From Cumulibacter soli (GTDB lineage: Bacteria > Actinomycetota > Actinomycetes > Mycobacteriales > Antricoccaceae), in contig NZ_SMSG01000005.1 of assembly GCF_004382795.1 (NCBI RefSeq), forward strand, positions 62,001-126,000: a stretch of DNA of 64,000 nt, in the 5' to 3' direction. The notes under the pieces were generated by a model. That model was not told where the DNA came from and searched no databases. It saw only the letters and a list, made by a program, of their open reading frames with translations. Of this stretch, positions 1 to 25,821 are shown piece by piece (the first letter of the stretch is position 1; the number at the start of each line of letters is the position of its first letter). Both the position numbers and the translations under genes were made by a program.

Positions 1-3000
1 AAGACCTGTCAAGCGGAGGATGGATAGGTAGCACGAGACGTCGCCGCCGGACGGATGGATGAGGAAGAGAGGATCACCAGAACCGCTTGAGAGGTGTACG
101 ACGGAATCCTCCGGGACGCGGCCTAGCACCCGTTGATTCACACTTATATCTGACGTCTGTCGCTCATCGCCGCTGCGCAGCAGTTCCGTTAAACGTCGCG
201 GCGTGGGCTCAGTCAGCAGTTGGCTGGGCTGCACCTCAATGTCGGCGTGAGCACGCAGTGCACGCACGAGGAGCAGTGAATCCCCGCCCAGTTCGAAGAA
301 ATCGTCGTCCGGACCGACCACACATCCTAAGAGCGTCGACCATTGGTCACATACTTCGCTGAGGAGTTCGTCTTGCTCGCTCCTGCGAGCTATGGCGCCG
401 AAACCCGACGACCTGCTCGCACCAGTTTCGGTCCATCCTCGCCCCGCAGCCAAGTCGCGGAGAGTGGCCATGGTGTTGGCGATCAGTTCACTGGCGAGGT
501 GCGGTTCGTACATACCCTCGCGCAATGCGATGTCGGCGATGAGTTCACCGCCTAGGGCGAACGCGCGAAACTCGCCGTGAATATGCGGCGTCGACACACG
601 CTGGCTCAACGCTCCCGCATCGGCGAAGCCAAGCGCACCCGAGGATCGCTCCAGGTCGGGATCGTTGTTCATTCCGAGCGTGGATTGAACGACGAAGGGT
701 GCGATAGGCCGTGAGCGCTCGGCGCCCTGGGACAGTTCGCGGCCAACCTCAATGGCGCTCACGCTCAAGTGCGCACCGATATCGGCCAGGGTGGCGCCGA
801 GAGCTTTCGCCTGGTCGCGCAGATCGCCGCTGCCGCGTAGGTCTACGGGCACGAGCGCGGTGGTCGATAACGGTCCGACCAGCTCCAGCACGTCCGGGTG
901 CAGTGCTTCGCGACGCGAATGCAGCGTGGTGAGCAGCATCTGATCTTGGCCGGTGTGCGTGCGCAAGGCGCGCGCTAGTGCGATCATCGTGACGGCGCTG
1001 AGTGTCAGCCCACGAGCGCGAGCCTGGTCGGCTAGGGCACGATGTAGGTGCGCGTCTAGTCGAGCCTCCCGTCGAATCATGGCGGGTGACGGTTTGCGGC
1101 CGGTAGTGGCCAAGCGCGGCGGCGCAGGTCGGTCGGCGAGATACGCGCGCCACCAGTCAAGGTCAGTATCGCGCCGTTCGGTAGCTCGTTGCAGGTAGTG
1201 CGCGACGGCTCCGGCCGCGGGCGGGCGGGGCAATGGATCGCCGGCCAGCAGAGCTGCGAGGTCGCGGTCGATCAGCGCGGTGGACCACCCGTCGATCGCC
1301 AGCAGGCTGAACCTGGTGATCAGGCGCGCCTGATCCTGTCCGTCCAGCACCACCGCGGCGCGTACTGCCGGCTCGAGGTCCAGATGGGGGACTTCGCGCG
1401 CCCAGTCGTCGAGGAGCGCGGCGACTGGGTTGTCATTGGGCGGTCGTTCTTCCGTTGTGTGTTCGGCATCCAGACCGTGTTGATCGATGACGTCAACCCG
1501 GGGCGTGCAGGTGGGATCGTCGACGTCACGAAGAACCTGCGTGCCGTCATCGGCAATCCGCACCCGCAACATTTCGTGCCGACGAACCAACGCGCTCAGC
1601 GCCGTCCGTAATTGTTCGTAGGCGTGCACGGCATCCACGCCCCGCAGCGGAACCACCGTCAGCACGCTTGCGGGGCATGCAGGCACGTCCCATGTGGACT
1701 GCTGCCCCAGCCAGTAGGCGCGCTGCAACGCTGTCAACGGGAATGGGCGGCCCTCGCCTGCGGGTAGCGCAGCTGGTTGAGCCCCACCGGTCCGCGGCTG
1801 TACTTCGCTGCTGCTATTCACAGGTTCCGGCGGTCGCGTGGCCACCGTTTCGTGTGTGTCGAAGGCTGCCGACTCCCCATCCCGCAACGCAGCCACGAGC
1901 TCGGACACTGTTGTTTCGGAGCGAACCGCCGTCAGCGGCAGCGTGTATGACGTACGCTCCGCGAGCATGGCAGCCATGCGCACAGCTAGTAACGAATCCC
2001 CTCCGAGCGCCAGGAAGCTGTCATCGCTGCCGATGCTGGCGGCGTCGACGCCGAGTAAGTCTGCCCATACCTCGCGGACCGCATCAATCACAACCGGGGC
2101 AGTTGCAGAATCGGCGGTCGGGTCAGGGGCTGCCCGGCCCGGCTGACTGTCCTCGGAATCGCACACGCCAATCAGCGAGGTGTCACGCAACCACTCGCCT
2201 TCGGCCAACGCCGCGAGGCCGGCGGCGTACTGGGTGAACATGTCATCGGCGGCCCTCGGGTCGACGGCAGCTTCGTTGACATCCCACTGCAGCACCAGAT
2301 CCCCGCGGTGCTCAAATGCCTGGTGATCAAGCCAGGTCTGCGGGGTTTGGCTGACACCATCAACGATTTCGCCGAGCCATTCAGTGTCGTGGTGGCCACC
2401 GTCATCGGTCGCGTCAAGGCCGATCATGCTGGTGAAAACGACCGGGACGTTACGTTGTTTGCCCGTACGGCGAGCCTCTTCGGCCAGTACCTCCAGGGCG
2501 CTGACCGAGGAGTGAATGAGGTCTGCATGCAGTTGTCTCTGCAGGGCAGACGCGGCGTGCACCAGATCCTGGCTATGACTGGGCTTGCGCTCCAAAAGCA
2601 GCAGCGAGGAGAACTCACCGACGACGTTCTCGACGCCCGGGAGGTCCGGCCGATCGAACACCGTCGTGGTGATCGCGAAATGGGCCTGCCCAGACCAGAT
2701 CTGCAGTATGTCTGCGTATGCAGCGAGGACCAGCGCGGTAGGCGTTATCCGGTGCTCGGCCGCGCACCGCTTGATCACGTCCCAGATCGCGGCATCAATC
2801 GTCGTGCGACGCCGCACGAACCGGGGGCGGCCCATAGCGTTGCTCGCCGTCGCTGACACGTCGATCGACGGTGCCGACGGTAATTCCTCGATCCGCGCAT
2901 TCCAGTATTCCCACGCCTCAGCGCGTTCCGGACCGTGAGCGTCTGCCTCCATGGCAGTAATGCAGTCGGCAAACGTCAGATCAATGTTCGGCAGGTCGAC

Positions 3001-6000
3001 GGCCGGATCTTCATATATTGCGCGCATCTCACGGTCGATCAGCATCCAGCTCGCCGAGTCGCACACGAGTACGTCGACGGCGATCAGCAAGCGGTGGCCG
3101 CCGTCCGGCATCAACACCACGATCGGCTCGACCAGTGGCCACTGACGCGGGTCGGCGACGCGATGTGCGGCCGCGTCACGCAGTCGCTTCAGGTCTTCGG
3201 ATGCTGATGCCGGACTGTGCGCGGTGAGGTCGTGCACCCGTGGGGTTGCCTCTGGTGGCGGATTCAGCGGGTGGTTACGACCGGCCTCGTCGATGACGGT
3301 GCGCAGCATCTCATGGCGGTCCACCACTCGCTGCCAAGCGGCGGTGTACCGGTCGACGTCGATGTCCGGGCACGCGATCTCGAGGAAGAACTGGCACGCC
3401 ACACCGCCGAGGTCGTAGGTATCTTGCCGCCCGAGCAGGTACGCCGTCTGCACGCGGGTCAGGCCAAATGGTGCCGAAGGCGTCGTTCCGCGAAGGCGCG
3501 GCGCACGCGGACCTGACTCGTCGCTCGTCCGATGCTCGACGGCCGGCTCTGTCGCGTCGACTACGTCCAGTGCCGTCGACACGTCGACGACCGGATGAGG
3601 CGCGTCGGCTTCGAGTAACTCGGCGAGCGCAGCGACGGTGGGTGCGCGCAGCAGGTCACGTAGCCGCAGCCGCGCTCCGCACTGCTCGCGAAGTTCGGCA
3701 AGTACGCGGGTGGCCAGCAGCGAATGGCCGCCCTGTGCGAAGAAGTCGTCATCGCGGCTGCGGATCTCCGTGCCGAGCACCGAGCTCCACACGCTGGCCA
3801 CAAGTCGTTCATTCGCTGTGCGAAGGTCGGCCTCTCCGCCAGGCGTCAGTGCGGCTCTGCGCGGTAGCGCGACTGACCGCGGGTCGAGTGCGCTCGGTGA
3901 GATCGCTATCTGCGGAGGACTGTCTGGCAGTTTCAGCACACGCTCCAACGCGTTCAGCGCATCGTCGGCATCCATCGCGTTCTTCATGGTGATTTCGGAG
4001 ATCGCCTCGGCTTCGGCGGCCGTGCCGAACCGCCACCGGTCCCAGTCGAGCGCGAGCCAACCGTCGTCATGGCGGCGTCGGGCCACCTCGTCCAGGTAGC
4101 GACTCGCGGCGACGTACGCCGCCAACCCGAACCCGCCAATCGTCCCGGCCGCTGACGACATCAGCACCACTCGAGGAGGCCGTTGCGCGGGCGGAAGGCG
4201 ATCGATCGCCGACTCCAACGCGTTCACTCCCCGCACCTTGGCCGCGAGGCTCGCCTCCAACGGCTCCTGATCCAGTTCGGACAGCGGTGCGAGTTCGAGC
4301 GAGACCGGCGCATGAATGACCACGTCGAGTCGACCGCGCTCTCTCGTCAGTTGCTCGACAACACGCCCGAACGCCTGGGTGTCGGCAACATCCAGCTGCA
4401 CCAGTTCGAGGTCGACTCCGCGGCGCCGTAACTCGGCGACCGCGTTCCGCTGCTCAATAGACCGCTCGTCGCTACTCTGTTCGAGGGCGCCGACCCGCCG
4501 CGAGGCGAGTACGATGCGGACCCCGAACTCGAGGCCCCAGCGTTCGGCCAGCCGGAGCCCCACCGAACCGAGCCCTCCGGTGATCAGGACGCTTTGGCCG
4601 CGCACGATTGGCTCGGTTGCTGCAGGGCTCGGGCGCCAGGACTGCCACGTTCGCACTGCCCGGCGTCCGTTGCGGAGCGTGATCTCCCACCCGGTGCGCC
4701 CGCCCGCAACGAGGTCGCCGAGTTCGGTCAAAATCGCACCGCGTCGCCAGCTCGAGTCGTCAACTTCCACGATTCGCCACCGCAGTCTCGGCACCTCCTG
4801 GCCGAGCACCCGGATTGCTCCAACCAGCGCTGCGGCTACGGCATCATCGGCTCCGTTGTGCAGGCATATCAGCGAAATCGACTCGTCCTCGGCGATAATT
4901 TCGGCCGCGCTAGCTAATTGACGAGCGAGATCGCCGAGTTCGGTCAACGCATTCGTCAGCCGCTCCGCGTCGCTGCCTCCGCGCGTCGTATCAATCGCTA
5001 CGGCCAGCGCATGCGCGGCACCGGAGGAGGACACCGCATCTGCGCCTCGGTCGACGTACTCCCGAAGCTGCTGCGCCAGCGGTCCTTCTCCGATAACGCT
5101 TACTGGCCCTACCATTTCAGTCGCGGGCGGAAGTTCGCGCCACGTCGGCACCTGCAGCGGCTCAGCTGCACTGGGCTCGCTACTTCCCGGCCCGGCGGCG
5201 GCTACTGATCTCGGTTGCGATTCGACATACATCCGTCGTCGTTGATACGGGTATGTCGGCAGGGTCACGCGACGACGGACCGGGCCCGTGACCGCTGTGA
5301 GATCGACCCCGGCCCCATGCGCCCAGAGTTCGCCGTAGGCGCTCAGCACGTCGACTGCGCTATCGCCGTCCATGTCGTCGCCGAACGGCGCAACCACTGC
5401 AGCGACACGGGTAGTACCCACGCTGCGGGCAGCTGTGGCGACACTCGTTCCCGGCCCGCCTACGACCACGATGACTTCTTGGTCTCCAATTGCCGCCTCG
5501 AGCGCATCGGCGAATCGCACCGTTGCGCGTAAGTGATCGCCCCATCGGTGCGGGTCGTGCCATTCCTGCGTAGTGACCTGCCTGCCCTGCAGGGTCGAAA
5601 ACAGTGGAATATCCAGTGATCGTGGCGTGAGGCGGGCACCGACCTCGTCGATGATGGCGCGCGCCGGTTCGATGAGTCGTGAGTGCGCCGCGACGTCGAT
5701 TCCTACTAAGGCCGTACGCACGTCTGATTGATCCAGATCTGACGCGAGGCGTTCGATGTCACCGATCGCTCCGGCGGCCACACATGCTGTCGGCCCGTTT
5801 ACGGCGGCCAGATCGACTCCGGGATGACGGCGCAGCACCTCGAGCATGGCGGCTTCGTCGAGCGCTACAGCCAACATCCGTCCGGGCGTGGTCTTCGCCA
5901 TTGCCTCGGAACGCGCCACAACCAGCATCGCGGCATCCGGCAGCGACAGGCCTCCGGCGATCACCGCTGCGGCGTACTCGCCGACGCTGTGTCCGATGAC

Positions 6001-7764
6001 CGCGTCGATGCGCACCCCGACATCGAGTAGGCGCAGACCCATCGCCACTTCGGCAGCGAACAAGGTGGGCAAACCGACGGCGGGACTCGGCAGTAGATCG
6101 TCCGAGGTAGCATCGGTCAGTAGTTCGTAGGTGTCGGGACCGCCGGCGACACGGACCTCTGCGGCTACCTCGGCGAGCCGGTCCCGAAGCTCCGGATCAG
6201 CGGTGATTGCACCGCTCATCATTCCGCGGCGCTGCGCGTCGGCACCCGGGAACGCCAGTATGACTCGGTTGTCGCGAGCTACGGCGTCGCTCGTTGCCAG
6301 CACATTGCCGCCGTCGTCGAGTACGGCGAGCGCGCCGTGTGGCATTCGTGCTCGTCCATGAACCGTCGTTGCTGCTATATCTGCGATCTGTGTGCCGCTA
6401 GCTGCCGTTGACCCTGCCACTTTGGTGACTTCGTCGCGCCATGCGAGGGCTGCGCTGCGCGACGCCGCGCTGATAGCGACGAGGTGTCGGGCGTGCGGGT
6501 CAGGCCGCTGAGGGGCCGGCACGTAACGCGGGGGCTCTTCGAGGACGACGTGACAGTTGGCGCCGCCGATTCCGAACGAGCTCACCCCGGCCCGACGCAT
6601 CGGTGAATCCCACTGCTGCAGCCCCGGAGGGAGATAGAACGCGGATCCATCGAGGTCCGGCACCGGATCCGCATGCACAGTGGGAAAAATGACGCCGTCC
6701 CGTACCGCCAGCACCGCCTTGATCAGCCCCGCTACACCTGCTGCGGACGACGTGTGGCCGATATTGCTTTTCGCCGATCCGAGCGCACACCACGGCTGCG
6801 CGGACTGGCCGGCAACCTCGCGCAACGCCGCGATCTCGATCGCATCACCCAACATCGTAGCCGTGCCGTGTCCTTCGATTACGCCAATATCTCTCGGATC
6901 TAGGTCAGCGACGGCGAGCGCCTGCTCGATAGCAGCCACCTGGCCGGCAACGGTGGGCGCGGTGAACCCAACCTTCTGAGCGCCGTCATTGGTGACGGCA
7001 CTGCCGCGGATCACCGCATGAATCGTGTCGCCGTCCCGCACGGCATCATCCAGACGACGCAGCACCACGCAGCCCGCACCGTCGGTGAATACCGTTCCGC
7101 TAGCACCCTTCGAGTACGAGCGGGTGTGTCCATCCTGACTGAATGGACCATCGGGAAGAGCCACATACCCGTCCGGATGCGGAATCTGCAGCGATACGCC
7201 ACCGGCGAGCGCCGTGTCGCACTCGTACCCGAGCAGCGCCTGGACCGCGACATGCACGGCGACTAGGGACGTCGCACAGGTAGCGCCAATCGCGAGTGCG
7301 GGACCGTTCAATCCAAGAATATGAGCGATCCGCAGCGGAAGATAGTCGGCGACATTCCCGGTATGCAGGTTCAGACTGTCGGCCGGATCCGCACCACCAG
7401 TGGCAACGAACCGGCCGGCCAGGTTGTGCACGAGGTACCCGGACAGGCCAGCTCCGGCGTACACCCCCACCACACCGCGCGCTTCGCCGGCGCCGTGCCC
7501 AGCCGCATCCAACGCATCTTTGGCGCACTCAGCGAACACTCGATGCTGCGGATCCATGATCAACGCATCGGCGGCACCGAGCCCCAGCGCTTCGTGGTCT
7601 ACCTCGAGCGCCGAGTGAACGCGTCCGACCACCGGAATAGGGAACGTCGAGGACGCCATACGATGCAATCCTTCGTGCCCTGCGGTCAGCAAGTCCCGGT
7701 AGGCCGCGATATCAGGCGCGCCCGGCAGACGGCACGACATCCCGACGATGGCGATATCGGTCAT
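1..7764 (-). CDS. Hybrid PKS-NRPS metallophore synthase, HMWP1-like (partial, 3' end outside window)
   Basis: The frame is open for 2588 codons from the ATG at 7764 (preceded by AAAGGA) to the window edge, so the C-terminus is missing. Domains read: ketosynthase 1-425 (Cys163 in GATCATSLVA, His299 in EGHGTAT, His337 in KSNIGH); acyltransferase 530-830 (Ser593 in GHSVGEY; the specificity motif VAAHS matches neither HAFH nor YASH); ketoreductase 1055-1270 (TGGLGSVG, Tyr1217); ACP (Ser1348 in GGHSLL); heterocyclisation domain from 1433 (D1564, D1569 and S1572 of DxxxxDxxS); PCP (Ser1924); a second Cy-like domain from 2008 whose first motif Asp is Ser2153; PCP (Ser2496); start of a thioesterase (LFLIHPSGGD, 2566-2575). 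There is no DH, ER or adenylation domain, so residues must be loaded by another protein. The order matches yersiniabactin HMWP1 except that its embedded methyltransferases are absent. A methyltransferase gene lies 13 bp upstream. A thiazoline/oxazoline metallophore is inferred; the exact product is unknown. Confidence 0.9.
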   Translation of the reverse strand, partial: MTDIAIVGMSCRLPGAPDIAAYRDLLTAGHEGLHRMASSTFPIPVVGRVHSALEVDHEALGLGAADALIMDPQHRVFAECAKDALDAAGHGAGEARGVVGVYAGAGLSGYLVHNLAGRFVATGGADPADSLNLHTGNVADYLPLRIAHILGLNGPALAIGATCATSLVAVHVAVQALLGYECDTALAGGVSLQIPHPDGYVALPDGPFSQDGHTRSYSKGASGTVFTDGAGCVVLRRLDDAVRDGDTIHAVIRGSAVTNDGAQKVGFTAPTVAGQVAAIEQALAVADLDPRDIGVIEGHGTATMLGDAIEIAALREVAGQSAQPWCALGSAKSNIGHTSSAAGVAGLIKAVLAVRDGVIFPTVHADPVPDLDGSAFYLPPGLQQWDSPMRRAGVSSFGIGGANCHVVLEEPPRYVPAPQRPDPHARHLVAISAASRSAALAWRDEVTKVAGSTAASGTQIADIAATTVHGRARMPHGALAVLDDGGNVLATSDAVARDNRVILAFPGADAQRRGMMSGAITADPELRDRLAEVAAEVRVAGGPDTYELLTDATSDDLLPSPAVGLPTLFAAEVAMGLRLLDVGVRIDAVIGHSVGEYAAAVIAGGLSLPDAAMLVVARSEAMAKTTPGRMLAVALDEAAMLEVLRRHPGVDLAAVNGPTACVAAGAIGDIERLASDLDQSDVRTALVGIDVAAHSRLIEPARAIIDEVGARLTPRSLDIPLFSTLQGRQVTTQEWHDPHRWGDHLRATVRFADALEAAIGDQEVIVVVGGPGTSVATAARSVGTTRVAAVVAPFGDDMDGDSAVDVLSAYGELWAHGAGVDLTAVTGPVRRRVTLPTYPYQRRRMYVESQPRSVAAAGPGSSEPSAAEPLQVPTWRELPPATEMVGPVSVIGEGPLAQQLREYVDRGADAVSSSGAAHALAVAIDTTRGGSDAERLTNALTELGDLARQLASAAEIIAEDESISLICLHNGADDAVAAALVGAIRVLGQEVPRLRWRIVEVDDSSWRRGAILTELGDLVAGGRTGWEITLRNGRRAVRTWQSWRPSPAATEPIVRGQSVLITGGLGSVGLRLAERWGLEFGVRIVLASRRVGALEQSSDERSIEQRNAVAELRRRGVDLELVQLDVADTQAFGRVVEQLTRERGRLDVVIHAPVSLELAPLSELDQEPLEASLAAKVRGVNALESAIDRLPPAQRPPRVVLMSSAAGTIGGFGLAAYVAASRYLDEVARRRHDDGWLALDWDRWRFGTAAEAEAISEITMKNAMDADDALNALERVLKLPDSPPQIAISPSALDPRSVALPRRAALTPGGEADLRTANERLVASVWSSVLGTEIRSRDDDFFAQGGHSLLATRVLAELREQCGARLRLRDLLRAPTVAALAELLEADAPHPVVDVSTALDVVDATEPAVEHRTSDESGPRAPRLRGTTPSAPFGLTRVQTAYLLGRQDTYDLGGVACQFFLEIACPDIDVDRYTAAWQRVVDRHEMLRTVIDEAGRNHPLNPPPEATPRVHDLTAHSPASASEDLKRLRDAAAHRVADPRQWPLVEPIVVLMPDGGHRLLIAVDVLVCDSASWMLIDREMRAIYEDPAVDLPNIDLTFADCITAMEADAHGPERAEAWEYWNARIEELPSAPSIDVSATASNAMGRPRFVRRRTTIDAAIWDVIKRCAAEHRITPTALVLAAYADILQIWSGQAHFAITTTVFDRPDLPGVENVVGEFSSLLLLERKPSHSQDLVHAASALQRQLHADLIHSSVSALEVLAEEARRTGKQRNVPVVFTSMIGLDATDDGGHHDTEWLGEIVDGVSQTPQTWLDHQAFEHRGDLVLQWDVNEAAVDPRAADDMFTQYAAGLAALAEGEWLRDTSLIGVCDSEDSQPGRAAPDPTADSATAPVVIDAVREVWADLLGVDAASIGSDDSFLALGGDSLLAVRMAAMLAERTSYTLPLTAVRSETTVSELVAALRDGESAAFDTHETVATRPPEPVNSSSEVQPRTGGAQPAALPAGEGRPFPLTALQRAYWLGQQSTWDVPACPASVLTVVPLRGVDAVHAYEQLRTALSALVRRHEMLRVRIADDGTQVLRDVDDPTCTPRVDVIDQHGLDAEHTTEERPPNDNPVAALLDDWAREVPHLDLEPAVRAAVVLDGQDQARLITRFSLLAIDGWSTALIDRDLAALLAGDPLPRPPAAGAVAHYLQRATERRDTDLDWWRAYLADRPAPPRLATTGRKPSPAMIRREARLDAHLHRALADQARARGLTLSAVTMIALARALRTHTGQDQMLLTTLHSRREALHPDVLELVGPLSTTALVPVDLRGSGDLRDQAKALGATLADIGAHLSVSAIEVGRELSQGAERSRPIAPFVVQSTLGMNNDPDLERSSGALGFADAGALSQRVSTPHIHGEFRAFALGGELIADIALREGMYEPHLASELIANTMATLRDLAAGRGWTETGASRSSGFGAIARRSEQDELLSEVCDQWSTLLGCVVGPDDDFFELGGDSLLLVRALRAHADIEVQPSQLLTEPTPRRLTELLRSGDERQTSDISVNQRVLGRVPEDSVVHLSSGSGDPLFLIHPSGGDVSCYLSILRLTGL

Positions 7765-7777
7765 CGGTTGATCCTTT

Positions 7778-8884
7778 TCACGAGTGAACAGATGGGCCGG
7801 CAGCGTCGGGGTTCTCAGCTACCAATACGAACTGGGCCATGCCTTCGAGGGGATGCGACCTTTCCGGAGCGATCTCGACTTCCCGTAGACCGGCGGCGTG
7901 GGCGGCGGTATTCCATTCCTCGCGTCGTAGCAGGATCCGGCCGTCATGTCGCCGTTGATCGCTGGGCCGTTCGTCGGTTCGGCCCGGCGGTGGGGACATC
8001 AGCAGGTACATGGACAACAGCAGCGGGTGGTGTTCGCGGCCGGTTTCAATCATCACCAGGTGTCCCCCCGGACGCAGTAGCCGGCGCAGGTCGCGGAGCG
8101 TCGCGGTGGCGTTCGGCCCGTTGTGCAGTACGTTCGCGGCCACGAGGACGTCGACCGATCCAGGTTCGACTCCCTGTGCCGAGCAGTCCTGCCGTAAGTC
8201 GTAGCGAGTAGCAGCGAATCCCGCCCGAGCACCCCAGCGCTCACGCGCCATCCGCAGGAAATAGTCACCGACATCGCTGAAGTCGTAACGAACCGACGTG
8301 TCGAGTCGCGCGATGATGTGCTGAGTTGTCGCGCCGGTCCCGGCGCCAATTTCCATCACCCGACCCCCCGGGCTCACCAGTCGAGCCACTGCATCAGCAG
8401 CGATCTCGTTGACGAGCCGGCTCGCAGCGTTACCCGCGTAGATCTCCTCGGCGATGCGGGGATCGGCGAACAGTAGGCTCTGCACACTGATTTCGTCACG
8501 CACCAGCTCACCAAGGTGCTCGGCGCAGGCGCGATAAAACTGTCGTAGCGAGGGTCCGCAGCAGTGCTCAACCTCGCGAGTGTCCTCGAAAGCGCGCTCC
8601 ACTTCCCCGGCTTCGGGCGCGCGGACGCCGTACGCGGTGTCACTGTGCGGGTCGAATGCGATCAACCCGGCGCCGGCGAGGACGCGCACCCACCGCTGTA
8701 CGACCGGTCGGTGGCGTTCGGTGATGCGCAATCGCTGCGCAAGATGCGCACTCGTGCATCCAACGCCGGGCGCCAAGCCCGCCTCGGTCGCTAGGAAACG
8801 CGCGAGGGTGAGCTCAGCCCATCGATCGAGCAGATACATCTCGCTTCGTATCGACTCGGCCGTCGGCGGCGCGGCAGCGGGCAT
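7778..8884 (-). CDS. SAM-dependent methyltransferase of the metallophore operon
   Basis: A 368-residue protein. The ATG at 8884 is chosen because GGAGA lies 7 nt upstream; a longer reading from 8962 would run through the operator and into the end of the sensor-kinase gene. The N-terminal third looks like a helical winged-helix or dimerisation region. The catalytic domain follows, with the SAM motif EIGAGTGATT, then YDFSDVG and a motif IV-like segment VLVAANVLH, then LLRPGGHLVMIE. These are features of class I methyltransferases, close to those embedded in PKS/NRPS modules. The stop is 13 bp before the synthase start, so the two are probably co-transcribed. HMWP1 carries methyltransferases in cis, so this protein may supply the same C- or O-methylation in trans; that is inference. 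Confidence 0.85.
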   Translation of the reverse strand: MPAAAPPTAESIRSEMYLLDRWAELTLARFLATEAGLAPGVGCTSAHLAQRLRITERHRPVVQRWVRVLAGAGLIAFDPHSDTAYGVRAPEAGEVERAFEDTREVEHCCGPSLRQFYRACAEHLGELVRDEISVQSLLFADPRIAEEIYAGNAASRLVNEIAADAVARLVSPGGRVMEIGAGTGATTQHIIARLDTSVRYDFSDVGDYFLRMARERWGARAGFAATRYDLRQDCSAQGVEPGSVDVLVAANVLHNGPNATATLRDLRRLLRPGGHLVMIETGREHHPLLLSMYLLMSPPPGRTDERPSDQRRHDGRILLRREEWNTAAHAAGLREVEIAPERSHPLEGMAQFVLVAENPDAAGPSVHS

Positions 8885-8921
8885 GTGGTCTCCGTTCTGT
8901 GACGAACAGAGAATACCAAAG

Positions 8922-8943
8922 TGATTATCGTTCTCATTATCGA
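8922..8943. promoter_or_regulatory. Fur/Zur-type operator upstream of the methyltransferase-synthase operon
   Basis: On the minus strand the site reads GATAATGAGAACGATAATC, very like Fur-family boxes, whose textbook form is GATAATGATAATCATTATC. Its core TGATTATCGTTCTCA agrees at 10 of 15 positions with the Streptomyces Zur consensus TGAAAATGATTTTCA as I recall it. It sits 38 bp upstream of the methyltransferase ATG and overlaps the last codons of the sensor-kinase gene. Metal repression of the operon is likely. Whether the regulator is Zur or Fur cannot be decided from one site. Confidence 0.6.
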
Positions 8944-10322
8944 GATCGAGTTTCGGCTGCACGCGGGATCCTGATGGTGAACGTCGTCGGTTCGCGCAGT
9001 GACGTCACCTCGATCGTCCCGCCGTGAATCGCGATATTCGCCCGCGCCAGGGACAGTCCCAGTCCGCTCCCGTCCCCACGGGTGCGGGCGGTATCCGCTT
9101 TGACGAACCGCTCAAAGATGCTCGAGCGCGCCTCGGCCGGTACACCGGGGCCGTGATCACTGACTCGAATCACGAGGTCGCCATCGATCCGCGCGATGTC
9201 CACCCGGACCGGGGGACTGCCATGCCGATGCGCATTCGCCACGAGATTCGACACCGCGATCTCCAGACGCCGTGGATCGGCGTATGCCCACACCTGGGGT
9301 TCCTCCGACTGCACCTCTACGCTCGCGCCCCAACCTCGGGTTGCGACCACCGAGCCCACTAGTGCGCGCACGTCGAAGTGCTCCGGGACGAAGCGGACCC
9401 GTTGCGCATCATGCCGGGAGATTTCAATCAGATCTTCGACCAGGGACGCGAGTGAGTGCACCTCGGCGCTCAGAATGTCGGCCGCCTCTCGAGCGTCCGG
9501 ACTCATCGCGCCGCGTTCTTCCTCGAGAATCTCCACGACCGGGATCATCGCGGCCAACGGGGTCCGCAATTCGTGCGAGACATCCGAAACGAACTGTTCA
9601 CGACGAGCCAGGGATGCCGTGTGCGCTCGTTGCATCTGATTGAACCCCTCGGCCAGATCGGCCACCTCGGTGATCCGTGCTTCGGGCAACTCGGCATCGA
9701 ATTGGCCCGCCGATGATCGAGACGCGGCGGCATTCAACTGACGCAGCGGCGTGATGAGGCGGCCGCCGAGCCACCAGGCGCCGGCGAACGCGATTGCCAA
9801 CGCCACGACGATCGAGATGCCGGTGACCGTACCGAGGGTGATGATGCCGGACTTGATCCCAGGCAGGGTCCGGTCGACGTACGCGACGACGGTGGCCTGC
9901 TCCCCGGTCGCCGACGTCATGGGCACGGCGACACTCATTGTCACTCGATGACCATGCACCTCAATCTGTACCGGCCCGATCTCCGTTCCCGAAGGCGACG
10001 CGCCCGGTCGGTGGATCTCGGCTCCCGATACGGATCCCTGCACGACCAGGTCGCCATCCAGCACCAGCGTGACATCCGGCTCGACCAGACGCGACAGTTC
10101 AGACTGGGTGAGCGCCGCTGGATTGCTATCCGCGAGATCTTCCATCTCCGACCTGAAGATGTACGACGCGGTGGTCGTGGCGTTCTTCGTCAGCCAGAAG
10201 CTCAATGTCAGATATACCGACAATGCGGTGCCGCCGCTGGTCAATAGCACCACCAGGACGATCGTGCCTGCCAGGCGTGCTCGTAGACCATCGCGCCACC
10301 GACGCGTGCCACTGCTCATCAC
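8937..10322 (-). CDS. Sensor histidine kinase of a two-component system
   Basis: A 461-residue membrane kinase. TM1 is about residues 18-44, an extracytoplasmic sensor region spans 45-155, and TM2 is about 158-185. A HAMP region follows, then the phosphoacceptor His250 in DVSHELRTPL, then an ATPase domain with N box (NLVANAHRHG), DHGPGVP, an F box (FERFVKAD) and GDGSGLGL. It belongs to the OmpR-associated kinases such as MprB. The start codon overlaps the stop of the upstream response regulator by 4 nt, so the two are translationally coupled. The sensed signal is unknown. The gene ends just before the metallophore operon, whose operator overlaps its stop codon; a functional link is possible but unproven. 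Confidence 0.92.
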   Translation of the reverse strand: MMSSGTRRWRDGLRARLAGTIVLVVLLTSGGTALSVYLTLSFWLTKNATTTASYIFRSEMEDLADSNPAALTQSELSRLVEPDVTLVLDGDLVVQGSVSGAEIHRPGASPSGTEIGPVQIEVHGHRVTMSVAVPMTSATGEQATVVAYVDRTLPGIKSGIITLGTVTGISIVVALAIAFAGAWWLGGRLITPLRQLNAAASRSSAGQFDAELPEARITEVADLAEGFNQMQRAHTASLARREQFVSDVSHELRTPLAAMIPVVEILEEERGAMSPDAREAADILSAEVHSLASLVEDLIEISRHDAQRVRFVPEHFDVRALVGSVVATRGWGASVEVQSEEPQVWAYADPRRLEIAVSNLVANAHRHGSPPVRVDIARIDGDLVIRVSDHGPGVPAEARSSIFERFVKADTARTRGDGSGLGLSLARANIAIHGGTIEVTSLREPTTFTIRIPRAAETRSR

Positions 10323-11017
10323 GATTCGGGTCGCCGAGTGGTGGTCAGTCGATAACCGAATCCTCGTACTGTGTGGATGAATTGCGGAATGTTGGGGTCG
10401 TCTTCAATTTTCACGCGCAGCCGGCCCACCGATGCATCGACGAGTCGCGAGTTGCCGAGATAGTCCTGGTTCCACGCGGCAGCCAGCAACTGCTCACGAC
10501 TCAGAACGGCGCCCTCGTGCGCGTTGAGCACCAGCAACAGCCTCATCTCGGTCGGCGTCAACTGCACTTCGGCGCCGCCCTTGAAGACTCGCATCCCCTG
10601 ATCATCGATGACGAGCTCCCTCCTCGCCGCATGATTCGAGACCTCCGCCGGTTCCGACGAGCGCACCCGACGCAGCACGGCCTTGATGCGCGCATCCAGA
10701 ACTCGTGGACTGACCGGCTTCACGACGTAGTCGTCGCCGCCGGCTTCAAGTCCAGCGACCTGGTCGATGTCTTCGGAGCGGGCGGTGAGCATGACGACGG
10801 GGACGTCGCTCACCGCACGGATCCGGCGGCAGAGCGCAAAACCATCCATACCGGGCAGCCCGATATCGAGCACGACTACGTCGGTCGCGAGCACCAGGCC
10901 CTCGAGTTCATCCGTCCCACGATCGAGCACCCGCACCACATAATCCAGACGCTGCAGACCGAGGGAGACCGCCCTGGCAACGTTCTCATCGTCCTCGATG
11001 AGGAGTACAGACGGCAC
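10319..11017 (-). CDS. Response regulator, OmpR/PhoB family
   Basis: A 232-residue regulator starting at a GTG with GGAGG 7 nt upstream; an in-frame ATG further up at 11050 would add 11 non-conserved residues. The receiver domain shows the acidic pair (IEDDE), the phosphoacceptor Asp in VVVLDIGLPG, the switch Thr in MLTAR and the Lys in VVKPV. The C-terminal winged helix has the OmpR pattern, with LTPTEMRLLLVL early, a VDASVGRLRVKIE recognition helix and the RGFGYRL hairpin. It pairs with the kinase downstream through a 4-nt overlap and is divergent from the VanY-like gene. Targets are unknown. Confidence 0.93.
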   Translation of the reverse strand: MPSVLLIEDDENVARAVSLGLQRLDYVVRVLDRGTDELEGLVLATDVVVLDIGLPGMDGFALCRRIRAVSDVPVVMLTARSEDIDQVAGLEAGGDDYVVKPVSPRVLDARIKAVLRRVRSSEPAEVSNHAARRELVIDDQGMRVFKGGAEVQLTPTEMRLLLVLNAHEGAVLSREQLLAAAWNQDYLGNSRLVDASVGRLRVKIEDDPNIPQFIHTVRGFGYRLTTTRRPES

Positions 11018-11153
11018 CTCATCGCCTCCGTTCCTGGCCATCGCTCGCATCTATTACACCTCACTGGCGGACGGACGCCGGTCGTTTGTCGAGAGGCTGT
11101 GACACTACTGTCGATGAGCGCGTACAGAATCGCGCAGATCGCTCGGCATCGTC

Positions 11154-11753
11154 GTGGCCATGACTCAGACACAGGAATCGAGCAAGTTCGGCGTAGGCGC
11201 GCTGACCGTATTGGGGCTTATCCTCGTCGTCCTGTCCATCGCACTGGGCGCCACGCTGATGAAATCCGTCGATGCCGAGCCGCGCAGCACGCATCGCACC
11301 ACGACCAATTCTGTTGAACCGACCGGTGCTGTTCCGGACGGCGAGTACCTCGATATCACGAAAGACGCCGCGCATGCCGCCATTGCCCGCCTCGACCCGC
11401 AACTGAAGGCAGCACTGCAAGGTGCGACGGCGGCGGCGGCGCAGGACGGCGTCACGATCGGCATAACCTCCGGCTGGCGGGCAGAGGCGTATCAAGCACA
11501 ATTAATGGAGGAGGAGATCGACGCGATCGGTGCCGCAGAGGCCAAGAAGCTCGTGGCTGATCCGTCCACCAGCCATCACGTCACCGGACATGCCGTCGAC
11601 ATCGGACCAATGAGCGCAACAGACTGGCTCGCTCAGCGTGGTGTGGAGTTCGGGCTCTGCCAGATCTACGCCAATGAGTCCTGGCACTACGAACTCGCGA
11701 CAACACCTGGCGGCACCTGCCCCCCGATGAAGTCCGATGCCACCGAGTCGTGA
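11154..11753 (+). CDS. Membrane-anchored VanY-like D,D-carboxypeptidase (peptidase M15)
   Basis: About 199 residues. An N-terminal membrane anchor or uncleaved signal (LTVLGLILVVLSIALGA) is followed by a linker and an M15/VanY catalytic domain. The zinc site is visible as STSHHVTGHAVDIG, giving His and Asp ligands, with the C-terminal WHYEL supplying the third His. VanY-type enzymes trim the terminal D-Ala from peptidoglycan stem peptides outside the membrane. The start may be the GTG at 11154 or the ATG at 11160; neither has a convincing ribosome site. It is transcribed away from the two-component system and shares a 136-bp upstream region with it, so control by that system is possible. Confidence 0.85.
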   Translation: MAMTQTQESSKFGVGALTVLGLILVVLSIALGATLMKSVDAEPRSTHRTTTNSVEPTGAVPDGEYLDITKDAAHAAIARLDPQLKAALQGATAAAAQDGVTIGITSGWRAEAYQAQLMEEEIDAIGAAEAKKLVADPSTSHHVTGHAVDIGPMSATDWLAQRGVEFGLCQIYANESWHYELATTPGGTCPPMKSDATES

Positions 11754-11894
11754 GGTCACTCGGCGACGATACGAGCGATGACGAATCCGGAGGGGGCAGG
11801 TGCCCGCGCTGTTGGGAGTCGCCGCTGACATCGGTTCGGTATCAACCGGCCGGGCTCTCTCGCTCCATCAGCCAACCCTGCTTAGGCTGGCATC

Positions 11895-12206
11895 ATGTCT
11901 GATTTGTCGACACCCGACGAGCTCTTCGCGCGACTGGCCGAACACGAGCAACAGGTCGAACGACGCGCCAAGAAGGATCACCATTTCGACAAGTACGCCG
12001 TGCTCGGTATGCATGCCGATGTTCGGCCGTACCTAGATAATTGGTCGGCCTACAACCAGGAACAGCACGTCGCAATCGCAGAGGCCATCAATTACCTCAC
12101 CCAGGCACACGACATGTTCGCCGACGCCGGTCGCGATGGGTACGACGACGACCGCGATATCGTCGCGGCACTACCAGAGACCGTGCGCCGCCTCGGCAAC
12201 GAATAA
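11895..12206 (+). CDS. Conserved hypothetical protein
   Basis: A 103-residue, acidic, probably helical soluble protein with no signal peptide or membrane segment. It is rich in charged residues (LAEHEQQVERRAKKDHHFDKY) and ends in a D-rich stretch with DGYDDDRDIV. I do not recognise the family and assign no function. It lies alone, 141 bp after the VanY-like gene, and ends 14 bp before the convergent yccF-like gene. Its base composition and codon use look like its neighbours, which supports a real gene. Confidence 0.6.
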   Translation: MSDLSTPDELFARLAEHEQQVERRAKKDHHFDKYAVLGMHADVRPYLDNWSAYNQEQHVAIAEAINYLTQAHDMFADAGRDGYDDDRDIVAALPETVRRLGNE

Positions 12207-12220
12207 CGCCTCGGGCGCGC

Positions 12221-12634
12221 TCAACGCTCCATTCCGAAGCCGAGTGCGTCTGGGTTGGCCGCGGAGATCGGCACGATCCGCCGTCCCAGCGGGACGAACG
12301 CCAGCGGGATCATCTTCCAGCAGGCGAGGCCCCAGGGGATACCAACGATCGTGACGCACAGCAGCAGCCCGGCGATCAGGTGACCTATCGCCAGTTCCCA
12401 GCCACAGAGCACGATCCACACCACGTTGCCAACGAGCGATGCCACACCGGCGTCGCTGCGGAAAACCACCGTGCGCCCAAACGGCCAGATCACGAACCGG
12501 GCGAGTCGGAATGATGCAAGACCGAACGGGATGCCGACGATGGTGATGCACGCGAGCAATCCGAGCAAGAAGTATCCGAGCGAAAGCCACCAGCCCGCCA
12601 ACACCAACCACAGAATGTTGCCGATCGAGCGCAT
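12221..12634 (-). CDS. YccF domain membrane protein
   Basis: A 137-residue integral membrane protein made of two related halves. Each half has a hydrophobic segment followed by an ITIVGIPFG- or VTIVGIPWG-type motif and a P-(F/L)-G-R turn, the signature of the YccF (DUF307) family. GAGAGG precedes the ATG. The biochemical role of YccF proteins is not established. It is convergent with the small hypothetical gene, and the next gene upstream on the same strand is a thioesterase 71 bp away. Confidence 0.85.
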   Translation of the reverse strand: MRSIGNILWLVLAGWWLSLGYFLLGLLACITIVGIPFGLASFRLARFVIWPFGRTVVFRSDAGVASLVGNVVWIVLCGWELAIGHLIAGLLLCVTIVGIPWGLACWKMIPLAFVPLGRRIVPISAANPDALGFGMER

Positions 12635-12705
12635 CGGTTACCTCTCGTAGAACGGACCCGGCAACGTCCCGCGGCAATGCCAGGCTGTGCCGAAGTCTGC
12701 CGAGG

Positions 12706-13437
12706 CTACATCAGGTTCTTCGGCGCGTTAAACCAGATGTTCGGTTCGTACTCCCCGTCGTCGCTCATCGGATCCTGTTTCTGTCGGCGTTCAAGCCGTT
12801 CGCGAGCGAACTTCGGGACGATGAACAATGCTTCTGCCTCGGCGGTCGTGCGTCCTTCTGCGTCGAAGATCCGTCCAGTAGCGAACGTCTTCCAGCCCTC
12901 GGTGCGGTCGACCTTGGCCTCGATATTGAGGTCGGCGAACAGCGGCGACGGACGCCGATACGTCACGTTCAAGTAGGCGGTCATCCCGGGCAGACCCACC
13001 AACGCGGGAATCATGCCGAGGATCTGGTCCAGCAGCATGGCGAGCACGCCGCCATGGATGTGCCCCAGCGGACCCTCGTAAGCAGCGCCGAGGTTGAACG
13101 TGCTCCACGCGCGCAGTTCGTCCTTATCGCGCTTCACCTTCAATGGCGGCGCGAACGCATTGCGCCGACCGGAGACCGGGTTCGACGGCGAGCGACGACG
13201 GCCGTCTGCACAAAGCAGCAATCCGACATTGGCAGGGTGCGCGTCGGCCAACAGTTTCGCTGATGCCGCCCGGATCTGAGCAGTCAAATCGTTGACGTCG
13301 TCCGCGCCGATCTTGGTACGCACGGTGGCGTCGATCAGTTCACGGACGGCGTTCGCCAACTCCTCGTACGACAGCTCTTCACGGCGAAGTTCGCTGGTAT
13401 CAATCTCACTTCGGGTCACATCAGTCACGCGGCCCAT
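12706..13437 (-). CDS. PaaI-type acyl-CoA thioesterase (hotdog fold)
   Basis: A 243-residue protein whose C-terminal half is a 4HBT hotdog domain. GHIHGGVLAMLLDQ forms the central helix and its active-site region, followed by TAYLNVTYRRPSPL and a final strand region (GRTTAEAEALFIV). The N-terminal 90 residues are a helical extension common in actinobacterial members. These enzymes hydrolyse acyl-CoA thioesters. A strong GAGGAGG precedes the ATG. It lies 119 bp downstream of an acyl-CoA dehydrogenase on the same strand, so a shared role in acyl-CoA turnover is plausible. The substrate is unknown. Confidence 0.85.
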   Translation of the reverse strand: MGRVTDVTRSEIDTSELRREELSYEELANAVRELIDATVRTKIGADDVNDLTAQIRAASAKLLADAHPANVGLLLCADGRRRSPSNPVSGRRNAFAPPLKVKRDKDELRAWSTFNLGAAYEGPLGHIHGGVLAMLLDQILGMIPALVGLPGMTAYLNVTYRRPSPLFADLNIEAKVDRTEGWKTFATGRIFDAEGRTTAEAEALFIVPKFARERLERRQKQDPMSDDGEYEPNIWFNAPKNLM

Positions 13438-13556
13438 AATCCTCCTCGGAGCGCACGCTCGCGCAACTGGGTATGCCCGTGACCAGGTCGAGGGCGGCGG
13501 CTAGCGCTCGTCCGCACCGACACCGGCCATCAGCAGCGAGCCACAGTCAGCAACTG

Positions 13557-15323
13557 TCAGTCGACCAATGCACCCGATCGCAACTGGTCCCAGTGACGGA
13601 TTTCTGGCGCCTCGTCATCCATCGCAGCAAGCGGGTCTGCTGGCACCAGGTGCGATCGTGCATACAGTTTCGCGACGAGTGCCTTACGTCCCTCATCTCC
13701 GGCCGCGGCCGCGGACCCAGCCTGCTCCAGCAGCAGCGCTGCGGCATACACGTCGACCATGTGCTGCGCGAGGGGGAACAGTCGCGCTTCGGCCACCTCC
13801 GGTTCGAGACCACGCCACCGCTGTAGAGCAGACTCAACCCGCCCTAGCCGATCCGCGACAACCCCGGTCGTTTCATCATCACCGCCGCTGGCGGCGAGGG
13901 CATCTCGTATCCGCTCGAACAGCGGTAGGTGGGCCTCATCGCGCGTGATCGCCCGGCGCACGTCCAAACACAGCACATTATCGGCGCCCTCCCATACGGT
14001 GTTCACCTGGGCATCGCGCAGGATCCGCGCGACTGGCCATTGCTCGATATAGCCGTTACCGCCATGCACCTCGATCGCGTCACTGGCGGCGGTGATGCCA
14101 AGCCGCGCGGCCCGCAATTTGATCAGCGGCACGCCAAGGCGCAGTCGCGGACCGATCATGCCTTCGAAGACGAGCGCTTGAGCGGCCTCGGTCTCGACGA
14201 TGAGTTCGGCCAACTTCCGCTGCATCAACGGCTGACGATCAAGCGGTGCATGGAATGCTTCGCGCGTTTTCGCGTACGAGAGTGCTTCGACCAACGAGCG
14301 ACGGGCGCAGCCCAACCCCATCATGGCCACGCCGATTCGGGAATCGTTCGTCATCTCCATCATCCGGCCCAGGCCACGGCCCTGCCCAGCCCGCTCACCA
14401 CCTGGCTGCTCGTCGAATGGTGCGAGCATGAATGCCTCGGCGTCCACCAGCTCAACCTCGGCGGAGGCCACGGATGCCGTGCCGAGTTTGTCCTTCAGCC
14501 GGCGGATTCGTATCCCGTTTCGACTGCCATCCGCACGTTCACGAAGTACCAGGAACGGCACGATGCCGCGGACGCCGTCATCGGCACCCTCAGGCTTGGC
14601 GAGTACGACGTAGGCACTGCCGTTGACGTTGGAGACGAACCATTTGAGGCCGTTGAGCAGCCAGGTTCCGCCGTCACGACGCGCCGTGGTCTCCAGCGCG
14701 GCGAGGTCCGAGCCGCCCGTGCGTTCAGTCAGGAGTTGCGCCGTCTCGCCGGTAAGTTGGCCTTCTGCCAGCACCTCCTTGACCCGCACCTGAGCGTCAC
14801 CGGGGGCGTACTGTTCGGCGAGCCGTAGCACCATGTCGCCACCGGTCCCCAACGCACAGGTCATGCCGATGTCGGCCTGATTCAACAGGTAGCTGCGAGC
14901 GGCAGTGAGCGGCTCAACATCGGAAATCCCCGCCGTGGCGGCCTTGCCGATGAACTCCGGCGTAGCGAAACTGTGGGTGACAAGTAGCTGACGTGAAGCC
15001 TCGAATGATGCGGGCATCACGACGGAGCTGATGTCATGCCCCCAGCGGTCGTACCGCTCTAGATACGGTCGGTTCCTGTCAGTCTGCTCGGCATACGTAT
15101 TGACCGGGCCCGCCATCAGCGCGCCGATCTCGCTCAGATATCCGCCGGCCCACTCGAGACCCTTCTCGCCGAGGTGGTTTCGCAGGATGAACTGCAACGT
15201 CGGGTCGCTGTCGTACCAGTTCAGGCCGGCCGCACCCTGATATCGCTCCGTTGCGTAGCGGCGGCGTTTCTCGGGTTTGCCGTGCGGTAAGCGGTCAACC
15301 TGCTCGACGATGTAGGAACTCAT
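13557..15323 (-). CDS. Acyl-CoA dehydrogenase family protein, AidB-like
   Basis: A 588-residue flavoprotein, longer than the usual 380-400 residues of short-chain dehydrogenases and closer to the AidB-like group. Landmarks are the N-terminal helical domain, TCALGTGGDMVLR in the FAD-binding strand region, GLKWFVSNVNGSAYVV in the beta domain, and a C-terminal IEVHGGNGYIEQWPVARILRDAQVNTVWEG segment (quoted here in pieces: EVHGGNGY, VNTVWEG). It oxidises acyl-CoA thioesters or acts in an AidB-like role. Its start is only 17 bp from the divergent PaaX-like regulator, which probably controls it. No clear ribosome site is visible. Confidence 0.88.
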   Translation of the reverse strand: MSSYIVEQVDRLPHGKPEKRRRYATERYQGAAGLNWYDSDPTLQFILRNHLGEKGLEWAGGYLSEIGALMAGPVNTYAEQTDRNRPYLERYDRWGHDISSVVMPASFEASRQLLVTHSFATPEFIGKAATAGISDVEPLTAARSYLLNQADIGMTCALGTGGDMVLRLAEQYAPGDAQVRVKEVLAEGQLTGETAQLLTERTGGSDLAALETTARRDGGTWLLNGLKWFVSNVNGSAYVVLAKPEGADDGVRGIVPFLVLRERADGSRNGIRIRRLKDKLGTASVASAEVELVDAEAFMLAPFDEQPGGERAGQGRGLGRMMEMTNDSRIGVAMMGLGCARRSLVEALSYAKTREAFHAPLDRQPLMQRKLAELIVETEAAQALVFEGMIGPRLRLGVPLIKLRAARLGITAASDAIEVHGGNGYIEQWPVARILRDAQVNTVWEGADNVLCLDVRRAITRDEAHLPLFERIRDALAASGGDDETTGVVADRLGRVESALQRWRGLEPEVAEARLFPLAQHMVDVYAAALLLEQAGSAAAAGDEGRKALVAKLYARSHLVPADPLAAMDDEAPEIRHWDQLRSGALVD

Positions 15324-24980: not shown

Positions 24981-25790
24981 CTACGCGGGAAGCTTGTAGT
25001 ACCCGCAGAAGGTGACCTGGTTGCGATCGATCCCACGATCGCGCACCAGCAATCGACGTACGCCGGTGGCCAGGCTCGACTCGCCCACGGCGAACGCGTA
25101 CACCCGTTCGCTGACCTGCCGCGCGGCGGCAGCAGCCAACGCCGCCTGTCCGGGAAGCTGCGTGGCGCCCCGGGTGACCCACTCGACGGTGACGTCGCTG
25201 TTGGTCGGCGCGGGCTGCCGGTCGGCGTCGTCCGGTACCTCAATGATTGCGTGTCCGCGCACTCCGGGCTCCAAGCTGCGTAGTACGCCGAGTGCGGCCG
25301 GCATCGCAGTTTCGTCCGCGACGATCAGCACTTCGTCGGCGAGCGCCGCCTTCTCCGGGAGCCACCCGTGACCCTGATCAATGAACGCGATCGGGTCACC
25401 TGGCTTCGCCCGCTTCGACCACGGTCCGGCGATCCCGTCATCGCCGTGTACGACGAAGTCGATGTCGAGTTCGAGGCCGTCACGGCGGAAATCGCGCACC
25501 GTGTAATTGCGAACCTCAGGGCGAGTTTCGTCAGGCAGTGCCAGGTAGGTCTGATAGGTGTCGACATCGAAACGCGAAGGAACGTTGTCGAACCGAACCT
25601 GGTCGGTCACCGGCACTAGTAACCGGAACCACTGGTCAAAACCTCGATAGTCGAACGAGTCGAGGTCGCCTCCGCCGATTGTCACCCGCTGGATGTGCGG
25701 GCTGATCGCCGCCGAGCGCACCACCCGTGCGGTGATCACCCCGGTGTCGGCGTGCATCACGGCGACGTTCGTCATCTCTTCGTCCGGCAT
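24981..25790 (-). CDS. Siderophore-interacting protein (FAD-dependent ferric reductase)
   Basis: A 269-residue protein of the SIP/ViuB family. The N-terminal FAD-binding barrel contains RNYTVRDFR, the RxYTxR flavin motif. The C-terminal SIP domain (EVLIVADETAMPAALGVL, VTFCGYYKLP) binds the nicotinamide cofactor. These enzymes reduce Fe(III)-siderophores in the cytoplasm to release iron. AGGGAG precedes the ATG. A near-consensus DtxR/IdeR box ends 13 bp upstream of the start, so iron repression is expected. It is 16 kb from the synthase locus and may serve another siderophore. Confidence 0.93.
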   Translation of the reverse strand: MPDEEMTNVAVMHADTGVITARVVRSAAISPHIQRVTIGGGDLDSFDYRGFDQWFRLLVPVTDQVRFDNVPSRFDVDTYQTYLALPDETRPEVRNYTVRDFRRDGLELDIDFVVHGDDGIAGPWSKRAKPGDPIAFIDQGHGWLPEKAALADEVLIVADETAMPAALGVLRSLEPGVRGHAIIEVPDDADRQPAPTNSDVTVEWVTRGATQLPGQAALAAAAARQVSERVYAFAVGESSLATGVRRLLVRDRGIDRNQVTFCGYYKLPA

Positions 25791-25802: not shown

Positions 25803-25821
25803 TTAGGTCTGCCTAACCTAA
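25803..25821. promoter_or_regulatory. DtxR/IdeR iron box
   Basis: TTAGGTCTGCCTAACCTAA matches the 19-bp DtxR/IdeR consensus TTAGGTTAGGCTAACCTAA at 16 of 19 positions and keeps both outer half-sites. It lies 13-31 bp upstream of the siderophore-interacting gene, where bound repressor would block transcription. Confidence 0.85.

Follow-up and report, generated by a model that had tools for sequence, protein, structure and literature searches.

The window studied here, a stretch of 64,000 nucleotides from Cumulibacter soli (C5:62001-126000, where C5 stands for its contig NZ_SMSG01000005.1; genome 3.94 Mb), begins within P0001, the gene of a large hybrid of polyketide synthase (PKS) and nonribosomal peptide synthetase (NRPS). 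Together with a partner gene, P0002, further left on the same contig and with adjoining transport genes, it probably forms a zinc-repressed (Zur-controlled) system that makes and imports a thiazoline metallophore. We prefer this reading because the partner carries a cysteine code, because both halves of the cluster are adjacent or situated in one gene row in relatives, because importer genes lie beside most related loci, and because Zur-like sites are found and IdeR boxes are lacking.

Within the window, P0001 is a single open frame on the minus strand (2588 aa), which overruns the left edge. After addition of the 747 bases left of the window, as the earlier note had proposed, the frame is completed in a thioesterase (TE), and the whole gene (C5:61254-69764) encodes 2836 aa. 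A Pfam search of the full protein yielded a ketosynthase (KS, residues 2-365), an acyltransferase (AT, 505-769), a ketoreductase (KR, 1058-1244), the TE (2565-2811), three carrier domains and two Condensation-family domains, but neither an AMP-binding (adenylation, A) domain nor a methyltransferase domain. With the acyl and peptidyl carrier proteins (ACP, PCP) and the two heterocyclization (Cy) domains, the order is KS-AT-KR-ACP-Cy3-PCP3-Cy4-PCP4-TE, as had been read from the part inside the window, including the lack of an A domain in its 2588 residues. Given the length of the open frame, the domain scores and the recurrence of this layout in other genomes, the arrangement is not due to chance. 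The methyltransferase, likewise predicted to act in trans, is a separate gene directly in front of P0001 on the same strand; its closest solved relatives are the C-methyltransferase domains of PKS proteins (CurJ, 7.6e-25; DisA, 3.4e-23).

The partner with an A domain expected by the earlier note was found around 27 kb further left. P0002 (C5:28521-34478, 1985 aa) has the carrier-Cy1-A-carrier-Cy2-carrier layout of HMWP2, and its A domain is the only one nearby: no other AMP-binding match exists in C5:1-223,000. The proposed HMWP1-like logic thus holds for the shared core layout and for the partner, from which P0001 would be loaded in trans. The missing A domain, however, is not a difference from HMWP1, because that protein equally lacks one, its carrier being loaded in trans by the A domain of HMWP2 (PMC9547227, in part). 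Concerning the P0002 carriers, two of three were called by Pfam; the first aligns with a Pfam-called carrier of the Amycolatopsis keratiniphila homologue and has no significant match among solved structures (a motif search for it gave nothing in 29 of 42 cases and was not used). The pocket residues of the A domain, with positions mapped by hand on GrsA segments, are D L F N M S L I; in all 44 aligned A domains, the own one included, the pocket begins with DL?N?SL and ends with I. This pattern agrees with the cysteine code tabulated in PMC3672683 (in part), such that the A domain is predicted to select cysteine. Five Condensation-family domains were found in the genome: P0001 and P0002 have two each, and the fifth belongs to a catechol cluster on a different contig.

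Relatives were sought by scanning named genomes with an alignment of the TE; the best 80 of 297 confirmed loci were kept, and 62 of them (L074-L133, L135, L138) were taken as family members, the remaining 18 being dropped for lacking the layout or showing too little of it. The family is actinobacterial and includes many bacteria from soil. Two layouts occur: the fused type of C. soli (23 of 62) and a split type (39 of 62), whose PKS protein terminates in Cy3-TE. Of the split loci, 34 extend 8 kb or more downstream; 20 of these contain a separate carrier-Cy4-carrier frame, which in the others possibly lies beyond the fetched stretch. In split clusters, the PKS protein offers no carrier after Cy3, and we infer that Cy3 must work with the carrier of the Cy4 protein. 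Among family loci with at least 8 kb downstream (n = 54), the methyltransferase accompanies 51, a binding protein 39 and a thioredoxin-reductase-like (TrxR-like) gene 30. The nearest locus among those listed is that of Aeromicrobium sp. PE09-221 (55-75% identity in aligned stretches), where methyltransferase, PKS, binding protein, permease, ATPase, TrxR-like gene, ABC pair and HMWP2-like gene follow each other directly; in Amycolatopsis keratiniphila, both halves are found in a single gene row. Four other genomes of the taxonomic family of C. soli gave weak matches (at most 64 bits), a scan of genome contigs with P0001 alone found no relative, and a plasmid search with Cy4 gave six records, all below 31% identity.

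The gene set is not described in the literature searched, which did not extend to subscription journals. The earlier note had supposed that the pathway may be new; this applies to the family as a whole and not to the C. soli locus alone. Udwary et al. reportedly described yersiniabactin in Salinispora tropica. The same is mentioned in PMC5318452 (in part), and a putative zincophore pathway of this species in PMC3430247 (in part); either may belong to the present family. In Salinispora oceanensis (L154:6622-18073), a saccharopine-dehydrogenase-like gene and an ABC-3 (ZnuB-type) permease gene are situated downstream of the Cy4 gene, the latter around 12 kb beyond it.

Zinc-type operators were sought with a matrix built from 19 printed Zur boxes of Mycobacterium avium ssp. 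paratuberculosis (PMC4298942, in part). In C5:1-126000, the best match (C5:34474-34500, score 20.6) separates the divergently oriented HMWP2-like and ABC genes, and the second-best lies just in front of the methyltransferase gene (Table 1), whereas a third separate place reaches only 12.9; the maxima of the controls were 18.7 in twenty Markov copies of the contig and 13.1 in the reversed sequence. Among relatives, 24 of 25 HMWP2-like promoters score at least 8 (null 0.60), and none of 160 regions upstream of transport genes does (null 0.20). A count of 21-mer sites gave a similar picture: 22 of 25 HMWP2-like promoters against 0.00 in Markov copies and 0.23 with shuffled palindromes. Such sites occur in 36 of the 62 family loci, with one further match at a single binding-protein gene of 45. 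The more permissive consensus of M. smegmatis (PMC7174638, in part) hardly separates most regions from the null at a threshold of at least 16/24 (transport genes 137/160 vs 97, PKS 46/57 vs 41, methyltransferase 43/55 vs 35.8, TrxR-like 20/26 vs 20.0); the HMWP2-like promoters alone are clearly set apart (mean 19.60 vs 16.35). The assembly-line genes are therefore probably under zinc-type and not iron-type control, as far as predicted operators can tell. The yersiniabactin- or coelibactin-like metallophore that had been proposed, with zinc as an option, is likewise supported.

The most unusual part of the assembly line is Cy4. The earlier note had seen two Cy-PCP pairs in series; the layout is confirmed, whereas by its residues the second Cy domain is not a canonical heterocyclase. 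Residues were compared across 147 aligned Cy rows, each exceeding 330 aa and with the four of C. soli among them. All 62 Cy3 rows possess both aspartates of the motif, T and D as the dyad and Q as helper, and Cy2 has D, D, S, D, Q in all six. All 38 Cy1 rows show D, D, T, D, with I or L as helper; in 28 of them the motif-final S is replaced by G. Cy4 has lost the first motif aspartate in all 41 rows (S in 40, N in one) and exhibits DGWS throughout, with S....DGWS where D....D..S is expected in 40. Its dyad T is replaced by Q in 30 rows and H in nine (T in two), the dyad D by E in 30 (D in 11), and R stands in for the helper Q in 30 rows, the other 11 retaining Q. At these positions, the Cy4 of C. 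soli carries S, Q, E and R, with SLLAIDGWS in place of D....D..S, and among the first-found loci inspected such motifs occurred only here and in Amycolatopsis keratiniphila. Dyad numbering and its role in cyclodehydration follow PMC9547227 (in part).

A tree of 63 chosen rows separates all Cy domains, Cy3 and Cy4 among them, from 11 ordinary condensation (C) domains (100/99, although the C side carries a long-branch warning), as had been supposed for both Cy domains of P0001. Cy4 forms one clade (100/99), which falls outside the remaining 36 Cy rows when the tree is rooted at its midpoint. The predicted structure of Cy4 (mean pLDDT 81.8, pTM 0.84) matches BmdB (Z 39.0), PchE (38.3), HMWP2-Cy2 (36.5) and EpoB (35.5) before ordinary C domains, which follow from 33.4 down. 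Because Cy folds are matched first and the motif and dyad residues are changed, Cy4 combines, as modelled, the fold of a Cy domain with a replaced active site; it would condense or transfer without cyclizing, and it looks like a new type of domain in the C/Cy superfamily. Two Corynebacterium rows, which retain the dyad T and D, speak against extending a non-cyclizing role to all Cy4 domains.

Concerning the starter, the salicylate gene sought on the basis of the earlier note did not appear: genes for forming salicylate or for loading an aryl acid were not found in the neighbourhood of the cluster, and no chorismate-binding enzyme matched on contig C5. The NCBIfam model for DHB-AMP ligase was applied to the genomes of 35 of the 62 loci, several of them draft assemblies, by scoring the best candidates per genome and with a dividing line set by ourselves; 20 genomes match at at least 457 bits, whereas 15, Aeromicrobium among them, have nothing above 235 bits, so that YbtE-type ligases do not seem to be a general feature of these genomes. 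Downstream of the importer genes, the C. soli cluster contains a KASIII-like protein whose solved relatives are ChlB3 (5e-30), a daunorubicin enzyme (7.5e-26), which we take to be DpsC, CerJ (5.3e-19) and FabH (5.6e-8). ChlB3, DpsC and CerJ are acyltransferases; by sequence the protein is nearer to them than to FabH, and it may putatively transfer an acyl group from carrier to carrier. A ChlB3-like enzyme was considered as a general starter loader; its gene is found in nine of 23 fused and one of 39 split loci (loci ending at 10 kb or at contig ends) and is lacking within 80 kb of the Amycolatopsis keratiniphila cluster, and because so few loci hold it, this role cannot be shown to be general. 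The catechol cluster of C. soli (L005 = C1:745001-765000, 4903-14113) comprises entA, entC, entE and entB-like genes, an NRPS with C-A-PCP-TE and a phosphopantetheinyl transferase. Its aryl ligase is a possible loader of P0002, albeit encoded on another contig in a cluster with an iron-type box. The starter may thus be a borrowed aryl acid, an acyl group delivered by the ChlB3-like enzyme, or cysteine itself.

For the metal, the product, the starter, the chemistry of Cy4, the order of chemical steps, the loading in trans and the role of the transporter, we infer the following course. P0002 would start the chain on its own first carrier, and its cysteine A domain would load its own carriers as well as PCP3 and PCP4 of P0001 in trans. 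Cy1 and Cy2 would form two thiazolines, KS-AT-KR-ACP would add a single reduced two-carbon unit, to be methylated by the separate methyltransferase, and Cy3 would form a third thiazoline. Cy4 would then condense or move the chain between PCP3 and PCP4, not as a canonical cyclase, and release would fall to the TE. The binding protein, permease and ATPases encoded at C5:56413-61257 would return the metal complex to the cell.

Several observations weigh against this zinc reading. No compound is known from this gene set. The importer is not seen beside 15 of the 54 loci, among them all eight Nocardia loci. With scores around 20, the own Zur-like sites are weak, because the published boxes score a median of 40, and in relatives only ten of 26 TrxR-like (null 0.40), eight of 55 methyltransferase (0.60) and four of 57 PKS regions (0.20) reach 8. 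A strict Zur pattern allowing three mismatches gave zero sites in the own genome and missed both reported ones, and with the M. smegmatis consensus these two are not the best of the contig. At 14/21, non-family loci, which are mostly AT-richer, hold 51 sites of the 21-mer per 306 kb, compared with 64 per 1.2 Mb in family loci; reversed, Markov and shuffled-palindrome controls were used in their place. Finally, the sites are operator-like by sequence, and Zur and Fur boxes are alike.

Other readings have to be weighed against these data. An iron siderophore of the yersiniabactin type would fit the core layout, which is the same as in HMWP1/HMWP2, and the nearest solved relatives of the Cy domains, which include yersiniabactin HMWP2 (EpoB is also near); furthermore, equibactin-like lines serve iron uptake (PMC3672683, in part). 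IdeR/DtxR boxes of at least 15/19 are, however, absent from 1.2 Mb of family loci, with one match at 14/19 compared to four in the reversed control, and the best IdeR matches in C5:1-72000 stay below 13/19, whereas Zur-like boxes are present instead. Iron-type boxes do exist in the same genome: one of 16/19 (window 25803-25821) precedes the gene of a siderophore-interacting FAD reductase (24981-25790), and one of 15/19 is situated in front of the separate catechol cluster. An iron siderophore is therefore considered unlikely. Still less probable is a metallophore for nickel or cobalt, as might be concluded from the NikA/Opp-like importer; its binding protein and permease match nickel/Opp models with scores under the model cut-offs, but nickel Nur boxes do not occur beyond chance in family loci (one vs one in the reversed control), and the boxes present are Zur-like. 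Cy-containing PKS-NRPS lines also make antibiotics and other thiazoline compounds. Such a product instead of a metallophore would agree with EpoB among the nearest solved relatives and with the lack of a chelator-forming gene beside the cluster; given the importer genes beside most loci and the metal-regulator boxes, we regard it as highly improbable.

A further alternative leaves the zinc pathway unchanged and takes Cy4 for an ordinary heterocyclase, the product having one thiazoline more than yersiniabactin. The Cy fold of Cy4, its grouping with Cy and not with C domains, the two Corynebacterium rows and the D kept in 11 of 41 rows all speak for it; the loss of the first motif aspartate in every row, the combination Q, E, R of dyad and helper in 30 of 41 rows, the own one included, and the deep separate clade speak against it, such that we consider it rather doubtful.

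The pathway appears to combine features of several known systems. With yersiniabactin, it shares the partner layout, the KS-AT-KR-ACP-Cy-PCP-TE core and presumably the use of one A domain for both proteins. HMWP1 carries its methyltransferase domains embedded, whereas here the methyltransferase is separate; further differences are the additional Cy4-PCP4, the Opp/Nik-type importer, the zinc-type boxes and the lack, near the cluster, of counterparts to the salicylate synthase and YbtE ligase of that system. Coelibactin of Streptomyces coelicolor and sorangibactin are equally made by Cy-based lines, but these are NRPS lines with salicylate genes (for sorangibactin, the salicylate synthase SrbB and the stand-alone A protein SrbK, as partly described), whereas the present one contains a PKS module. 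Coelibactin is under the control of Zur and has been predicted to be a zincophore (PMC6103462, PMC3430247, PMC10127202, each in part), not yet isolated as of PMC3430247. The equibactin cluster of Streptococcus equi and a Clostridium kluyveri cluster likewise possess an HMWP2-like protein whose single A domain loads all carriers, with no salicylate synthesis in the cluster (PMC3672683, in part); equibactin differs by EqbG lacking a PKS part, by the salicylate-AMP ligase EqbD and by serving iron, according to the same excerpts. The zinc island of Mycobacterium avium ssp. paratuberculosis (sid, mptABC) is alike in its Zur-controlled NRPS genes and IrtAB-like transporters, whereas sidA and sidB are annotated as NRPS/thioester reductase and no KS-AT-KR-ACP-Cy line is described there (PMC4298942, in part). 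The present pathway thus has a yersiniabactin-like core with coelibactin-like, zinc-type control and is set apart by its free methyltransferase, importer, missing starter genes and Cy4.

Downstream of P0001, the importer directly adjoins on the same strand, tightly packed and followed by the KASIII-like gene; no unrelated PKS genes, which the earlier note had held against its proposal, are present there. The interval between the two halves (C5:39100-55400, around 16 kb) contains acyl-CoA, CoA-transferase, oligopeptide-ABC and MFS genes; as both halves are adjacent in Aeromicrobium sp. PE09-221, where no such block is found at the corresponding place, it is probably an insertion, judging from gene order. 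P0002 is separated from the divergent genes by 18 or 30 bp, depending on the start codon chosen. Directly behind it, DsbA-like and CcdA/DsbD-like genes are situated (L004:9227-11364), with a possible link to thiol chemistry. In the eight Nocardia loci (L095-L100, L102, L103), Cy3-PCP-Cy4-PCP-TE is kept, the KR has no match in seven, and a binding protein is found in none within the fetched stretch. A sensor histidine kinase and a response regulator on the other side of the methyltransferase gene were considered as metal sensors of the cluster. They were found in one and in none, respectively, of the 54 family loci; this is a weak test, because many loci end shortly before the methyltransferase gene. 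Elsewhere in the window, a molybdopterin oxidoreductase gene (22542-24800) and the chromosome origin region (39499-59404; parB, dnaA, gyrB, gyrA), with a sign change of GC skew near 46-50 kb, were observed.

Table 1. Features of the cluster and its surroundings, in coordinates of the window or of contig C5
Feature	Position	Strand	Basis or remark
HMWP1-like PKS-NRPS P0001 (2588 of 2836 residues)	window 1-7764	-	open frame, Pfam
Thioesterase start (around 24 residues; remainder left of window)	window 1-72	-	Pfam
PCP4	window 166-372	-	Pfam carrier; limits approximate
Cy4, non-canonical Cy-like domain	window 385-1731	-	residues, tree, predicted fold
PCP3	window 1885-2085	-	Pfam; best carrier stretch at residues 1894-1960
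Cy3, canonical heterocyclization domain (residues 1430-1857)	window 2194-3477	-	alignment, tree
ACP	window 3613-3813	-	one of three Pfam carrier domains; limits approximate
Ketoreductase (KR)	window 4033-4593	-	Pfam
Acyltransferase (AT)	window 5458-6252	-	Pfam
Ketosynthase (KS) with C-terminal extension	window 6415-7761	-	Pfam
Free-standing PKS-type C-methyltransferase	window 7778-8884	-	ATG at 8884; GTG start at 8962 possible (7778-8962)
Zur-like operator (predicted) before methyltransferase-P0001-importer genes	window 8916-8942		Zur matrix 20.1, second-best in C5:1-126000
Sensor histidine kinase	window 8937-10322	-	cluster membership doubtful
Response regulator	window 10319-11050	-	cluster membership doubtful
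Substrate-binding protein	C5:59719-61257	same as P0001	lipobox (seen by eye)
Permease	C5:58659-59648	same as P0001	
Permease fused to two ATPases	C5:56413-58662	same as P0001	
KASIII-like protein	C5:55407-56528	same as P0001	
Two fused permease-ATPase genes and TrxR-like gene	C5:34497-39025	divergent from P0002	CPFC motif in TrxR-like gene

Because no chelator gene is seen in the cluster, the chelator-gene rule of antiSMASH for NRP metallophores (PMC12971057, in part) may overlook the family, although its tandem-Cy model might still match. In Cy4, nature provides a Cy fold whose dyad is replaced, which is useful for the unsettled mechanism of Cy domains. A bolder proposal would be that of a widespread actinobacterial zincophore family without a YbtE/EntE-loaded aryl start in which Cy4 represents a catalytic class new to the C/Cy superfamily, such as one for condensation only or for transfer; we put this combination forward tentatively, as a minority view. 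In one such version, Cy4 would add an uncyclized cysteine whose free thiol helps to bind zinc, this thiol being handled by the conserved TrxR-like CxxC enzyme. Few zinc-scavenging small molecules are known, and the present family, found in many genera, offers a zinc switch open to testing and a movable gene set.

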